Positions 3,749 through 33,553 of a stretch of DNA of 35,162 bases are shown piece by piece. Each line of letters starts with the position of its first letter. The first letter of the stretch is position 1. A program made the position numbers and the translations under genes. Under the pieces are notes generated by a model. The model worked only from the letters and a program-made list of their open reading frames with translations, was not told the DNA's origin and ran no database searches. Source of the DNA: Oscillospiraceae bacterium (GTDB taxonomy: Bacteria; Bacillota; Clostridia; Oscillospirales; Ruminococcaceae); the NCBI GenBank assembly GCA_016291435.1, contig JAEEXH010000024.1, forward strand, positions 1-35,162. The letters are read 5' to 3'.

Positions 3749-3959
3749 ATGCGAGGAGATGGCGCTTGACCAGTGTGAAGTCGGCAGCGGTCAGCTTGCC
3801 GTCCTTGTTCATGCCGCCCGCTTCCCAGTCTGCCAGCGTGACATCCTCTTTCAGCAGCCAGCCCATCAGCAGCACGGCATCCGACATATCGCATGCACCG
3901 TCCTTGTTGATGTCGCCGATGACGGGATCATCGCCCGGCTCATGCCCGGTACTGCACAC
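3747..3959 (-). CDS. Orphan type I dockerin fragment
   Basis: This 70-residue frame is almost entirely a type I dockerin: two Ca-binding segments joined by a short linker. Repeat 1 is DINKDGACDMSD followed by a hydrophobic helix. Repeat 2 is GMNKDGKLTAAD followed by LVKRHLL, and the usual first Asp of its loop is Gly. Dockerins anchor enzymes to cellulosomal cohesins, so a dockerin normally sits at the end of a larger secreted protein. Here there is no signal peptide and no catalytic or binding module. The short lead PGDDPVIG looks like the end of a linker. The frame is closed upstream by TAA and the chosen ATG has no clear ribosome-binding site. It is probably a remnant of a larger gene, although an intact promoter lies immediately upstream. 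Confidence 0.65.
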   Translation of the reverse strand: MCSTGHEPGDDPVIGDINKDGACDMSDAVLLMGWLLKEDVTLADWEAGGMNKDGKLTAADFTLVKRHLLA

Positions 3960-4082: not shown

Positions 4083-6440
4083 TCATCGCACCCGAATATC
4101 TGTGAGCGCGACCTGATCGCCGGTCAGTGCCGCAAAGATTGTATCGTTTCCGTCCAGAATGACGGTAGTATGCTCGATCGCGATGCCGAGCGTCTCTGTA
4201 CTGACATAGATCCTGCCGCCCTTTTTCACAATGCGCACAGAGCATTCAAGCCCTTTCTTGAGCAGGCGCTTCCATGCCTCCCAGCCGGGGAAATCACCGT
4301 TTCTTTTCACTGTGAGTGTGTTCTCGGCATGGTCGTTGCTGCCGGAATTTTCGCCGTTGAGCTTGATCAGCGCATATTCCCGATAGCGCTTGCCGCCGAC
4401 CTGATTATCCTCCGCGCTGTAAATCACGAGATAGGGGCAGTGCCATATAAGATCCGCAGAGGGCAGGCTCATCGTGTGGAAATCGACGATGATCTCACCG
4501 CGCAGCGGAATGCCCGCAGATGAAGCACTGCGCGGGTGGTCGATCTGCACATTCGGCAGATCGGATTCCAGACGGTCGGTATAGCTGACCCTGCTGATGA
4601 TCTGCCGGATCGTGCCCGCATTTGTCTGCTCGCCGGTCTTCTGCGCGGAAAGACCGCAGATGCGGCAGTGCTCGCCGGTGATGCCGATATAAGATGACTT
4701 GGAGCTGTCCGAAATCACAAGGATGAATACGACAGTGCGCTCCGGGCTGATCATGCGGACAGAAACATGATCCTCATAGCGCCCTGTGATGATCTCATAG
4801 CCCGGCGCAGGCTGCTTGTTCTCCGTCACCTCGACCGCAAGATTCCGGGTGTTGGTGGAGACATAATGCCCGTCGAACCAGAGCTCGCAGAATTCCATAT
4901 AGTGATAGGCTTTGATGGTCTTGGGATCGCTGTGTACATGCCGGTCATAGGAATCGAACACAATCACGGACGGCGCAGAAAAGCCGTTTTTGCCGGGATC
5001 GGCAGGCTCCGCCGTGAAGGTAATCCGCGTGACTGCCTGCTCTGCGGGAATGCCTGCGGAGACAGTCTCTCTGTAATCCCGGCAGATGATCTCAGGCTCC
5101 AGACGGGTATTATCCGCCTGCTCCTGCTCTGCATGGTCGCTGTCCATCAGCTGCACCATGATCTCGGCATAGACCGGGTCAAACTGCGTGCCGGACTGCT
5201 TGACAAACTCCTCCCGCACGACCTGATAGGAGAGCGGGTCGTGCGTGCTGCTGCCGGAAATCATCGTGTCATAGGCCTCTGCGACTGCGATGATGCGTGC
5301 GATCTCAGGGATCGCCTTTTCACGCAGCCCGGAAGGATAGCCGCTTCCGTCATACCACTCATGGGCGGCACGGGCACACGCGCTGAGATACGGGAATTCG
5401 GTGATGCCGGAGAGGATCTCTGCGCTCAGCACAGGCTTCTGACGGAGCTGCTCCTCCTCTTCCTCGGTAAATCCCTCCGACTTCCGCAGCACGGCATCCG
5501 GCAGGGCGATCCTGCCGACATCATGCAGCAGCGCCGCATAGTAGACCTTCTCGCATTCCTCGGGGGTCTTCCCTGTGCGCTCGGCGAGCTGCCGCGCAAG
5601 CACAGCGACACGGACGGAATGTCCTTCTCTGTCTGCGTCCCGCTTTTCGGCCGCCGCGACAAATGCCGAAGCAGTCTGATCGAACAGGCGCCGCATGCTC
5701 TGCCGCTCCTTCCGAAGGCTCCCGACCTCTGCCGCATGCGAGCGCTCGGCTGCATCGTTGATATCGAGATAGCAGAAAATATAGAGCGAGATCGACACCA
5801 GCACAATCGCCATATTGACAATCGAGAGACCGTAAGTGAAGATCTGGATGATGCCGACGGTGATGGGGAAGAAGATATACAGCACCAGAGAAGTGTAGAT
5901 CAGCTTGCTGAACGCGGTTTTGTACTGCCGGATGACGGTATACTGCACAATCGGCAGAAGCACAGGGACGGCGTAGCTCAGCAGAAAGCCGGGACCCCGG
6001 TGATAGACGCTGTGCTCGTCGATGTAATAAAAGAACCCGGTGAAATGCGACAGAATGACAAGCACCATGCCGAACGCAGCAAAGAGATTCACAGCCTTCA
6101 GCCGCCTCGGAATCTCTTTCAGCCCCGCTTCATTTTGCAGCAAGTCGGTCAGATAGAAATTGAATGTGAGCACAACACCGGGTGTCAGGAAGAACACCAT
6201 GAAATTGGAGAAGCGCACCATAAACCCGCCAAGCGCGCTTTCATCGCCGCGGCAGCTATATGCTGTGCGGTCAAACGCGAGGAGCGATGCCGCGATCAGC
6301 TCCATGAGGAACAGAATCCATTTTCTGCGCTTCGAGAGGAAGCGTGTGAAAAGGAGCAGTCCCGCGATCATAATACAGATCGCACAGAGCGCCAGCATAA
6401 TATTCATCTGATGCTCTCTGATGATCTCAAACACGGTCAC
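4083..6440 (-). CDS. Membrane HD-GYP protein with altered active site and extra C-terminal domain
   Basis: The protein has 785 residues. Residues 1-225 hold about seven membrane helices, a short linker follows, and an HD-GYP domain spans about 250-435. Glu265, His274 and His306-Asp307 of the metal site are kept and GYP is at 367-369. However, HDxGK reads HDVGR, HHE reads AHE (359-361), the mid-domain metal His aligns with Lys335, and VAD reads VAE. These changes make full cyclic-di-GMP phosphodiesterase activity doubtful. Residues about 470-785 form a long domain that I do not recognise, rich in predicted strands, with AIEHTTVILDGNDTI near its end. The gene starts nine bases after the histidine kinase stop. 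AAAGGAG lies upstream, so GTG 6440 or GTG 6434 could be the start. It is the last gene of a three-gene signalling operon. Confidence 0.82.
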   Translation of the reverse strand: MTVFEIIREHQMNIMLALCAICIMIAGLLLFTRFLSKRRKWILFLMELIAASLLAFDRTAYSCRGDESALGGFMVRFSNFMVFFLTPGVVLTFNFYLTDLLQNEAGLKEIPRRLKAVNLFAAFGMVLVILSHFTGFFYYIDEHSVYHRGPGFLLSYAVPVLLPIVQYTVIRQYKTAFSKLIYTSLVLYIFFPITVGIIQIFTYGLSIVNMAIVLVSISLYIFCYLDINDAAERSHAAEVGSLRKERQSMRRLFDQTASAFVAAAEKRDADREGHSVRVAVLARQLAERTGKTPEECEKVYYAALLHDVGRIALPDAVLRKSEGFTEEEEEQLRQKPVLSAEILSGITEFPYLSACARAAHEWYDGSGYPSGLREKAIPEIARIIAVAEAYDTMISGSSTHDPLSYQVVREEFVKQSGTQFDPVYAEIMVQLMDSDHAEQEQADNTRLEPEIICRDYRETVSAGIPAEQAVTRITFTAEPADPGKNGFSAPSVIVFDSYDRHVHSDPKTIKAYHYMEFCELWFDGHYVSTNTRNLAVEVTENKQPAPGYEIITGRYEDHVSVRMISPERTVVFILVISDSSKSSYIGITGEHCRICGLSAQKTGEQTNAGTIRQIISRVSYTDRLESDLPNVQIDHPRSASSAGIPLRGEIIVDFHTMSLPSADLIWHCPYLVIYSAEDNQVGGKRYREYALIKLNGENSGSNDHAENTLTVKRNGDFPGWEAWKRLLKKGLECSVRIVKKGGRIYVSTETLGIAIEHTTVILDGNDTIFAALTGDQVALTDIRVR

Positions 6441-30861: not shown

Positions 30862-30904
30862 AAAAAAAGCGCGGGACAGATCCGATCTGCCCCGCAATTT
30901 TTTA
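30862..30904. terminator. Bidirectional terminator
   Basis: The stem GCGGGACAGAT (30871-30881) pairs with ATCTGCCCCGC (30885-30895) with one mismatch. T runs follow on the plus strand (TTTTTT) and on the minus strand (CTTTTTTT). It serves the convergent DegV gene and the dockerin operon. Confidence 0.9.
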
Positions 30905-30933: not shown

Positions 30934-31812
30934 TCATGCGCCTGCGAGCACACGCAGCAGGGCATTGAGGTCGTTCTGGTCAACGTTCAGGTCGCCGTTC
31001 AGGTCGGCTTCGCGGCGGGATGCTGCGGAGAGCTCATAGGTGCCGCCGATCGCGCGCGCCAGAAGCACCGCATCGGTGAGGTCGGCTTCGCTGTTGCCGT
31101 TGATATCGCCGGAGCCGGAGAGCACATAGGTCAGAAGCGAAGAACACGCCTCATTAGAGAGACCGGCGTCATTGTAAGAAACATTGACAGTGGAGCCCTC
31201 TTTTTCATAGACAACCGTTGGAAACATAATTCCGCTGCTCCCATACTGCTTCTGCGTAGCTGGCAGAACTTCTGAGAATTCTTCCCAACTGTGCGGATAA
31301 TTTTTATCCCCATCCGGGCTACCGAAGTGCGCCAAATCCAATACATACTCTTCAGAGAGCACACGATGAACAACATCTTCGGGCAGTGTACCGCCCTCTG
31401 CAACCGTCTGAATATAGGAGTCTCTTTCCTCGTCCGTATAATAGCCCATTGCCCACGCAGATACAAAACGGAATACTGCGGTCTGTACGCTGTCCTCAAA
31501 TCTGTAAGTTTTCAGATTTTTGACAGCCTGCTTCCACACTTCGTTTATATCATCGACGAAGGGGTCATAATCCGGCGAGTTCAAAATCTCATCCTGTATT
31601 GCAAGAAATTCCTCTGACTTCACGCCAAAGGTGAGATAATATCTGTTGTCCGTCTCTTCAAAATAAAAGATCTGACCAGACTTCATAAAAGTGGTCATAT
31701 CCGGCGCAGTATCTGTGATATCAGAAGCTGCTGCCGGGAGCATTGCCGTGCCGAGCATCACGGAAGCGATCAGGGCACTGACTGCGGATTTCAGTACATT
31801 CAGCTTTTTCAT
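30934..31812 (-). CDS. Secreted dockerin-bearing protein with a module shared with the anti-sigma-like protein
   Basis: The protein has 292 residues and starts at ATG 31812, with AAGGAGG ahead. A signal peptide spans 1-29. The body (about 35-225) matches no family I know. A type I dockerin spans 235-290, with loops DINGNSEADLTD (236-247; the fifth position is Asn, not Asp) and DLNGDLNVDQND (270-281). Residues 103-214 (YRFEDS to VSYND) align with residues 243-355 of the neighbouring anti-sigma-like protein: YRFEDS with YRLDDS, TVAEGGTL with TIADGGRL, and SSGIMF..STVNVSYND with SSNITF..SETISVHYVD. The spacing is nearly the same. It is last in the sigma operon and probably docks to cohesins outside the cell. 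The anchor class is clear; the biochemical role is unknown. Confidence 0.82.
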   Translation of the reverse strand: MKKLNVLKSAVSALIASVMLGTAMLPAAASDITDTAPDMTTFMKSGQIFYFEETDNRYYLTFGVKSEEFLAIQDEILNSPDYDPFVDDINEVWKQAVKNLKTYRFEDSVQTAVFRFVSAWAMGYYTDEERDSYIQTVAEGGTLPEDVVHRVLSEEYVLDLAHFGSPDGDKNYPHSWEEFSEVLPATQKQYGSSGIMFPTVVYEKEGSTVNVSYNDAGLSNEACSSLLTYVLSGSGDINGNSEADLTDAVLLARAIGGTYELSAASRREADLNGDLNVDQNDLNALLRVLAGA

Positions 31813-31857
31813 AACTATTACCTCCTTGTAAGATATAAGATCTGGTGTTACATTATA

Positions 31858-32940
31858 TTATCGCTCAGTAAAAAGATCAACATAGTGAACGCTAATTGTT
31901 TCACTATCCGGCTGCAACATCAAAATTGCAATTCTAAATGTTATATTACTGCTTTGAAGCGCAAGTGTCGGGTAAACTGTTCTAAAGTATAATGCCAGTG
32001 AAAGATCAACGTCATTTCCTTTGTATTTCAAGTAGTCCATACATGTCTTAAGTACTTCCGGGCTGCCGGCATAGTCAATGAACGAATCGGAAAGCCGCCC
32101 CCCGTCTGCGATTGTACGCATACTGTCAAGCACTTCTGTCCGAGAAATCAGATCATTGGCATACATCACCTCCAGCCATTCTTCAGCAACACCCAGGCTG
32201 TCATCCAGACGGTAGGGCTCGCCCGCTGTCATCCGGGAAACGGTTTCAAGGAACTCCGTTTTTGTGATAGTTTCCCCGAATTTCGCAAGCTCCGAAACAA
32301 CATCCTTCGGCAGGATCATCATCCGGTATTCGGGTTCTGCTTCGGGTGCTTCCGTTTCTGTCTGCGTGGTTTCTTCTGTGCTGACCGCCGCTTCACTGCC
32401 CGAAGTCGCTGCGGCTGTGTCTTGTAAGATCGTTGCGGAGGATATGAATGAAACTTGCGGTTCGACGGTTGTGATAATCGTTTCGCCTGTTGTGGTGACG
32501 GTGTCCGCGGCAGCGGTTATGATTTCCGCCGCGGCTGTTGTGACGAACAGCGGAGCGCGGTCAGCGTCTTCGGAAAGTGTTGTCTGATAGGCAATCCCCT
32601 CTTTCTCCCTGTCAGCCGTGCCGGTCGCCTCGGCAGCCTGCACGGTGCTCGTTTCAGCGGAATGCTGTGTGTGTTCTGCGGTGGTCTGCGCCTCGGAGGC
32701 TGTCTGCATCTCCAGACGCTTTTCCCGCAGCCCGCTCAGGAGAATTCCGCCGCACGAGAGCAGAATCAGGCAAGCCGCAGCGCCGGTCAGCGCCGGAAGC
32801 GCCCGGTCAAGCATGATCACGCGGCGGGATTCGCGCGGCTGTTCGCCCGCTGCCGCAGCACGCAGCAGCTCCTCGCGGCACCGCCCGCTGATATGAACAC
32901 GCCCGAGCACCCGGTTATAATCCTGCATATTCTTCTTCAT
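31858..32940 (-). CDS. Transmembrane anti-sigma-like protein with extracellular sensor module
   Basis: The protein has 360 residues. Its ATG (32940-32938) overlaps the sigma stop as ATGA; the frame is open further upstream, but that part is a shadow of the sigma gene. Residues 1-43 are cytoplasmic and helical (YNRVLGRVHISGRCREELLR). One helix spans about 46-70. Residues 75-200 are a long Thr/Ala/Glu/Ser stalk. Residues about 205-358 form a domain whose part 243-355 resembles the body of the dockerin protein encoded next. The layout matches that of membrane anti-sigma factors such as RsgI: inside sigma-binding tail, helix, outside sensor. I see no zinc-binding ZAS motif (HxxxCxxC), so the sigma-binding mode would be non-classical. 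The role is inferred from gene order and topology. Confidence 0.75.
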   Translation of the reverse strand: MKKNMQDYNRVLGRVHISGRCREELLRAAAAGEQPRESRRVIMLDRALPALTGAAACLILLSCGGILLSGLREKRLEMQTASEAQTTAEHTQHSAETSTVQAAEATGTADREKEGIAYQTTLSEDADRAPLFVTTAAAEIITAAADTVTTTGETIITTVEPQVSFISSATILQDTAAATSGSEAAVSTEETTQTETEAPEAEPEYRMMILPKDVVSELAKFGETITKTEFLETVSRMTAGEPYRLDDSLGVAEEWLEVMYANDLISRTEVLDSMRTIADGGRLSDSFIDYAGSPEVLKTCMDYLKYKGNDVDLSLALYFRTVYPTLALQSSNITFRIAILMLQPDSETISVHYVDLFTER

Positions 32941-33413
32941 GGCGTAAACTCTTCTCCCAGCATTTTTTGCAGACGCTTCCTTGCACGGGCGAGGCGTGTC
33001 TGCACAGCCGTCTCGCTCGCATCTGTGATCTCTGCGATCTCCCGCACGGTATACCCCTCGAAATAGTACAGGTGGATGATCACACGGTATTGCTCCGGCA
33101 GTGCGTTCACAGCCTCCCAGACCGCGAGCTCGGCTTCGGTCTTCGCGGGGATCTCCCCTGCCTGCTCCAGCGAAACGGTATCCCGCCGCCGGAACCTGCG
33201 GAACAGATCTCTGCTTCGGTTGATCGCGACACGCAGCATCCAGGCTTTTTCCGCCTCCGCGTCCGGAAACGGCTCTTCGCGCTGAAAGCGTATCAGAAAC
33301 ACATCGTGGGTCACATCCTCGGCGTCCTGCACATTCCGGCAGCATGTCAGCGCGACGCGGTAGACATCGTCGTGCAGCCGATCGTAGATCTCTGCCATTT
33401 GCGCTTGTTCCAT
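32937..33413 (-). CDS. ECF-type RNA polymerase sigma factor
   Basis: The protein has 158 residues from ATG 33413, with AAGGAG nine bases ahead. Region 2 is YDRLHDDVYRVALTCCRN followed by QDAEDVTHDVFL and KAWMLRVAINRSRDLFRR. Region 4 is LPEQYRVIIHLYYFEGYTVREI, then AEITDASETAVQTRLARARKRL, the HTH that recognises the -35 box. The size is standard for ECF sigma factors. Its last codons overlap the anti-sigma-like start. The operon promoter looks like sigma-A. I could not find a clear ECF-type site that would show autoregulation. Confidence 0.93.
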   Translation of the reverse strand: MEQAQMAEIYDRLHDDVYRVALTCCRNVQDAEDVTHDVFLIRFQREEPFPDAEAEKAWMLRVAINRSRDLFRRFRRRDTVSLEQAGEIPAKTEAELAVWEAVNALPEQYRVIIHLYYFEGYTVREIAEITDASETAVQTRLARARKRLQKMLGEEFTP

Positions 33414-33553
33414 GGAATGAAGCTCCTTGTATGAAGTTCCTTCACTATACACACGTTTGAGAAGGGCAAAATATCACACCCCTTCTGAAAAAAATTCAGA
33501 ATTTACAATTTGTTCATATTTTGCCCCGCGTGCCGTGCTATTATGATAGTAGT

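Follow-up and report, generated by a model that had tools for sequence, protein, structure and literature searches.

An ECF sigma factor, an anti-sigma-like membrane protein and a dockerin protein encoded side by side in an Oscillospiraceae bacterium, with an outer module that is probably shared

The window analyzed in this study is a stretch of 35,162 nucleotides from an Oscillospiraceae bacterium (contig JAEEXH010000024.1 of assembly GCA_016291435.1). Three genes of its minus strand stand in the order of an ECF sigma factor (33413-32937, 158 aa), a single-pass, anti-sigma-like membrane protein (32940-31858, 360 aa) and, after a gap of 45 bases, a secreted dockerin protein (31812-30934, 292 aa). 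The genes of the sigma factor and of the membrane protein overlap by the four bases ATGA. The co-directional arrangement, the strands, the overlap and the gap had all been described in an initial annotation of this DNA, and we confirmed them from the coordinates. Pfam recognizes Sigma70_r2 and Sigma70_r4_2 in the sigma factor, both above cut-off; these two regions of sigma-70, and no other, place it in the ECF group. The presence of both domains, the 4-base overlap and a conserved N-terminus of the partner protein support the proposed pairing of an ECF sigma factor with an anti-sigma-like protein.

At its N-terminus the membrane protein has a tail of about 45 residues, after which come one TM segment, a Thr/Ala-rich stalk up to about residue 204 and an outer module in residues 205-360 (31861-32328, minus strand); the tail, the TM segment and the stalk were assigned by reading the sequence. 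Its predicted layout is that of a membrane anti-sigma factor, with a gene directly behind that of the sigma factor, a single TM segment and a co-conserved N-terminal tail. No Pfam family, RsgI_N included, matched the protein up to an E value of 1, the only NCBIfam match was GltJ at E 0.16, and PADLOC gave no match. The dockerin protein is made up of a signal peptide (residues 1-30, approximately), an outer module (residues 31-232; 31117-31722, minus strand) and a dockerin (residues 233-292), where Pfam Dockerin_1 matches residues 235-287 with an E value of 5.6e-7. The signal peptide and the two calcium-loop repeats of the dockerin were likewise assigned by eye. A signal peptide together with a type I dockerin having two such repeats is what is expected of a cellulosomal protein, and the dockerin would presumably bind a cohesin. 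Dockerin_1 has 107 matches in the whole genome at E 0.001. The PADLOC match of this protein, BrxD at E 0.046, lies over its dockerin part.

The sigma factor and the N-terminal part of the membrane protein belong to a family that is widespread in the genus. Our genus sample consists of this genome and 29 congeners. Orthologs of the sigma factor, with 64-70% sequence identity, are found in 13 of the 29 congeners, and the wider sigma family comprises 38 genes in 21 of the 30 genomes. The 4-base overlap between the sigma and anti-sigma genes is present, by coordinates, in all 14 loci, and the N-terminal 72 residues of the membrane protein are matched in each of the 13 orthologs (14/14 with our own protein). 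Ectodomains of 11 of the 14 proteins are connected in one related net, and those of our genome (G000), G007 and G010, the last one truncated by the end of its contig, are not matched by any other ectodomain at E 1e-3. The N-terminus is thus constant and the ectodomains are varied, and the family therefore appears to keep the switch and to exchange the part outside the cell. DUF4179-type anti-sigma factors stand beside ECF sigma genes. Weak matches to DUF4179, below the cut-off, were obtained for two of the eight net ectodomains scanned (two of nine orthologs scanned), whereas the ectodomain of our protein has no DUF4179 match and is dissimilar to the ectodomains of that type.

An ECF-type promoter-like motif, TGTGATATTTTGCC-nnn-CTCA-nn-YGT, is located at 33453-33478 on the minus strand, 40 nt before the start of the sigma gene. 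With up to three mismatches allowed, it occurs 32 times, in 21 of the genus sample's 30 genomes. Twenty-seven of these sites precede a sigma gene of the family, at a distance of 40-123 nt, and the reversed pattern, used as a control, has no site. The motif stands before 27 of the 38 family sigma genes, including all 14 orthologs. Since the pattern was read off the upstream regions of these same genes, its rarity elsewhere is the informative part of the result. Such a conserved motif in front of the sigma genes would fit an autoregulated sigma factor.

Whether transcription from this promoter would extend to the dockerin gene is a separate matter. The dockerin gene follows the pair directly, as had been noted before, and no terminator-like site was detected on the operon strand between 31812 and 33413. 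Behind the dockerin gene there is a terminator-like stem-loop, with 12 pairs and a T-run (30870-30896, minus strand); terminator-like sites number five in this region against 3.0 expected, two weaker ones being inside the dockerin gene. It is therefore possible that the dockerin protein is a product of the sigma factor's own promoter, although this is unproven. A possible sigma-70-like promoter, TTGATC-17-TATAAT with 10 of 12 positions matching, is present before the dockerin gene (31852-31880, minus strand), and two further sigma-70-like matches (9/12) are found at 31931-32015; the first, a match to the consensus, lies in a patch of AT-rich sequence. Given these three matches, the dockerin gene could be transcribed independently of the ECF promoter.

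The initial annotation regarded the three genes as a unit whose absence from related genomes would speak against it. Among the genomes examined the triad was indeed seen in our own only, and its conservation as a unit is not supported. Behind the pair, at least 700 nt could be read in 10 of the 13 orthologous loci (the contigs of G010, G017 and G013 end there or within 356 nt). None of these 10 loci has a dockerin gene in operon position, and neither do 12 paralogous loci or 80 loci of named genomes. For these searches we used a dockerin model built from four sequences. Among the 13 orthologous and 12 paralogous loci it matched three times at E 1e-3. Each of these matches is on the other strand than the sigma operon: G003 has one 2.1 kb past the operon, G001 has one 2.4 kb past it, and the third, in G010, is close to a paralogous pair. 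On the 80 loci of named genomes it gave two matches, both likewise on the other strand, and one is the G010 gene again. In G002 and G015 the place of the dockerin gene behind the orthologous pair is taken by a GH11 gene (L023:2691-4187 and L027:3041-4369, respectively), identified in G002 by Pfam as GH11 with CBM_4_9 and in G015 by similarity.

The outer modules of the membrane protein and of the dockerin protein had been proposed to be copies of each other. The aligned stretch was reproduced by BLASTP, which pairs residues 243-355 of the membrane protein with residues 103-215 of the dockerin protein at 22% identity over 116 columns. The spacing from YRxxDS to TxAxGG is equal in the two proteins, as claimed, but it measures 33 residues from start to start, and the previously given 37 is where the GG pair begins. 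One could object that these are two unrelated small helical domains, each with a C-terminal beta hairpin, whose likeness in adjacent genes arose by chance: the E value of the BLASTP alignment is 0.13, not significant alone, and a profile of the two lacks a third member as an anchor. However, the Smith-Waterman score of the pair, 56, is matched by only 8 and 12 of 10,000 shuffles (about 0.1%) and is reached by none of 349 unselected protein segments, for which the maxima were 49 and 54. These segments come from loci that were not fetched for similarity to the modules; a set including the similarity-fetched loci, in which 3 and 21 of 426 segments reach 56, was not used. The profile comparison that had been suggested as a check came out partly in favor. 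Comparing single sequences, hhalign aligned 110 columns at 26% identity with a P value of 5.4e-4 and a score of 29.2, against a maximum of 19.9 among 200 shuffles of one partner, but its probability was 30% without predicted secondary structure and reached 74% only with it.

Structure prediction, the other suggested check, was similarly mixed. The two modules were folded separately by AlphaFold in single-sequence mode, with five models each. The best models are of low confidence, with a mean pLDDT of 56.0 and a pTM of 0.49 for the membrane module and 58.7 and 0.57 for the dockerin-protein module; the remaining four models of each module have pLDDT values of 37.5-46.5. In both of these low-confidence best models the order of elements is one strand, seven helices and two strands. 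The exceptions are a 3-residue strand in the model of the membrane module and additional elements at either end of the dockerin-protein model. At an offset of 140, set beforehand by the sequence alignment, the secondary structure of the low-confidence models is identical at 80.5% of 113 positions, which argues against a chance likeness. The value for the next offset is 77%, and the mean for offsets further than 4 away is 44%, with a standard deviation of 6%. In view of the shuffles, the segments, hhalign and the models we consider a chance resemblance improbable and the homology of the two modules quite probable, though unproven; the duplication of the outer module put forward by the initial annotation is to be read at that strength.

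What the module itself might be was approached through its relatives. Neither module matched a known family or fold in Pfam, NCBIfam or the PDB: Foldseek found nothing at E 0.001 for either model (best E values of 3.3 and 0.081), and the best E value of a sequence profile search against the PDB was 0.014. We also searched three overlapping samples of genomes, namely the genus sample, a family sample of 347 and an order sample of 394, in part with a two-row profile of the two modules (A1). In the genus sample the dockerin-protein module has one weak foreign match (G020, E 0.0027), the matches of the membrane protein in other genomes all fall within its residues 1-170, ahead of the module, and A1 found below E 0.4 only its own two rows. 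In the family sample 46 genomes, our own among them, give matches of the dockerin-protein module with E values up to 0.1, and the best of those from other genomes has E 7.9e-5; the membrane module has 12, its own included, with a best foreign E value of 0.02. A1 has a single foreign match in the order sample (E 0.0095), and the open frames of the 80 loci around related sigma genes in named genomes gave it no match with an E value of 1 or less. A scan of genome contigs with the dockerin protein confirmed no relative. Because the genus, family, order and 80-locus searches gave no confident relative, we call the outer module an apparent orphan in these samples.

Most of the family-sample matches of the dockerin-protein module are due to one stretch of about 40 residues in proteins of roughly 1000 aa, which, judging from their sequences, we take to be ABC sugar-binding-like. 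The stretch is a helix-strand segment in the C-terminal part of the module (window 31156-31296, dockerin protein residues 173-219, approximately), and in genomes of the family its Smith-Waterman score reaches 91 over about 46 residues, higher than the 56 between the two modules. An origin of the dockerin-protein module from an ABC sugar-binding protein was considered but not adopted. The best E value per genome is 7.9e-5, and the motif is absent from the membrane copy; the likeness of this stretch to the 1000-aa proteins may be due to chance or mark a fragment. The central helices also resemble DUF4214, but Pfam has no such match in the module, the one DUF4214 match of the genome lies elsewhere and is below cut-off, and the idea was discarded.

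Both modules fall within one AT-rich patch (31117-32328), which also contains the spacer and the signal peptide. Within it the GC content is 0.459 in each module and 0.544 in the spacer plus signal peptide, and it is 0.59 in the stalk and 0.66 in the dockerin that flank it. GC3 is 0.48 in the membrane module and 0.495 in the dockerin-protein module; outside the modules the values are 0.715 for the sigma gene, 0.74 for codons 1-70 of the membrane protein, 0.60 for the stalk and 0.78 for the dockerin, and 40 reference windows in 13 genes of the analyzed stretch have a mean of 0.73 (sd 0.047, minimum 0.635). Such a composition suggests transfer but does not prove it. A foreign AT-rich segment carrying two related modules could have come to lie between stalk and dockerin and given two fusions, in which case the modules would share descent but no linked function. 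The native GC of the flanks and the want of confident relatives of the modules are in keeping with this. On the other hand, low GC need not mean transfer, because AT-rich ectodomains also occur in some other anti-sigma proteins of the family and a GC3 of 0.38 was measured for a different open frame of this genome; moreover, no convincing repeats flank the patch. We regard common descent without linked function as rather unlikely.

The reading that we favor, at a probability of about one half, is that of a positively autoregulated ECF sigma/anti-sigma operon from a genus-wide family with exchangeable outer domains, the outer module being present here on the dockerin protein as well. The membrane protein would hold the sigma factor by its short N-terminal tail. 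The outer module would read a signal, which would lead to proteolysis of the membrane protein, and the freed sigma factor would activate its own promoter; read-through would then yield the dockerin protein, by which the cellulosome would receive a diverged copy of the module. With one ligand or partner common to both modules, the sensor would report what the cellulosomal copy handles, much as the ectodomains of RsgI proteins mirror domains of the cellulosome. Weighing against this reading are the occurrence of the triad in one genome only, the BLASTP E value, the low confidence of the models, the sigma-70-like matches before the dockerin gene, the higher score of the ABC-like stretch and the small number of motif sites in this genome. 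The second copy could also act on the sensor itself if, once the operon is on, it bound the same ligand or paired with the membrane module, and so either turned the sensor off or presented the ligand to it. The three genes are likely one operon with a probable shared module, and an autoregulated operon of this kind would presumably need a shut-off, yet a shared ligand or a pairing is not assured because the identity is only 21-26%, and the arrangement is found in one genome only. A decoy or feedback role of this kind seems to us improbable.

The favored operon reading has precedents in part. In the accessible text of PMC4711584, the SigI/RsgI systems of Clostridium thermocellum likewise have a sigma factor beside a transmembrane anti-sigma factor, autoregulation, and outer domains that differ from member to member, one of them shared with a dockerin-bearing target: the GH10 ectodomain of RsgI6 shares 57% identity with Xyn10D, a xylanase of the cellulosome, and sigma-I6 recognizes the Xyn10D promoter. 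The earlier statement that no system of this form has been described was therefore too strong, as RsgI6 and Xyn10D already have a module in common between an anti-sigma factor and its cellulosomal target (PMC4711584, same text). Our system differs in its ECF-type sigma factor, which has regions 2 and 4, in its probably shared module, an apparent orphan that is neither a CBM nor a GH, and in the place of the dockerin gene directly behind the pair. The membrane protein would work like an RsgI but is not one, because its sigma factor is ECF and it has no RsgI_N match. The sigV-rsiV-oatA operon of Bacillus subtilis also combines an ECF sigma factor, an anti-sigma factor and an output gene under autoregulation, and the ectodomain of RsiV binds an outside ligand, after which site-1 and site-2 cleavage follow (accessible text of PMC5014341). 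However, RsiV is a lysozyme receptor, and the third gene there does not encode a secreted copy of the sensor module.

According to the accessible part of a 2024 survey, a dedicated suite of RsgI receptors exists only in bacteria with Acetivibrio-type cellulosomes (PMC11557425); how cellulosomes of the Ruminococcus type are tuned to their substrate would still have to be explained. The titles and abstract openings of the literature we found, a search outside of which most subscription papers lie, do not name such a Ruminococcus system. The sigma family described here, with its 38 genes, is a testable candidate for this tuning, and a sensor and a dockerin protein with what is probably the same outer module hint at how such bacteria might sense plant fiber. 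A further-reaching speculation, which we think unlikely, is that cellulosomes of the Ruminococcus type have their missing biomass-sensing regulator in this family: the switch would be fixed and its sensor heads exchangeable, and in this species the head would have been exchanged for an orphan module, which the operon would also export on a cellulosomal protein, and this would close a feedback loop between cell and cellulosome. At this locus one could test directly whether the sensor and the dockerin protein have a ligand in common.

A wider cellulosome regulon was not found in this genome, where the motif occurs, besides the sigma operon, at only two further places, one before a paralogous sigma gene (C86) and one before the gene of a 111-aa protein (C118). 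The latter site (G000:C118:17972-17997, L139) has three mismatches, and the function of the 111-aa protein is unassigned. About 2 kb further on in C118 a 751-aa Thr-rich dockerin protein is encoded, for which Pfam gave only Dockerin_1. Overall, five of the 32 sites have no sigma gene of the family behind them. Sites G003:C80:2366-2391 and G029:C91:4779-4804, away from the listed family sigma genes, have the same three-mismatch variant of the motif and are a possible further target.

One more dockerin was observed in the window, at 3753-3917 on the minus strand, where a 71-aa open frame has a Dockerin_1 match of 39.7 bits. The frame follows the gene at 4083-6440, which from its sequence we take to be HD-GYP-like, at a distance of about 165 bases with stop codons in between, and looks like an isolated dockerin remnant.
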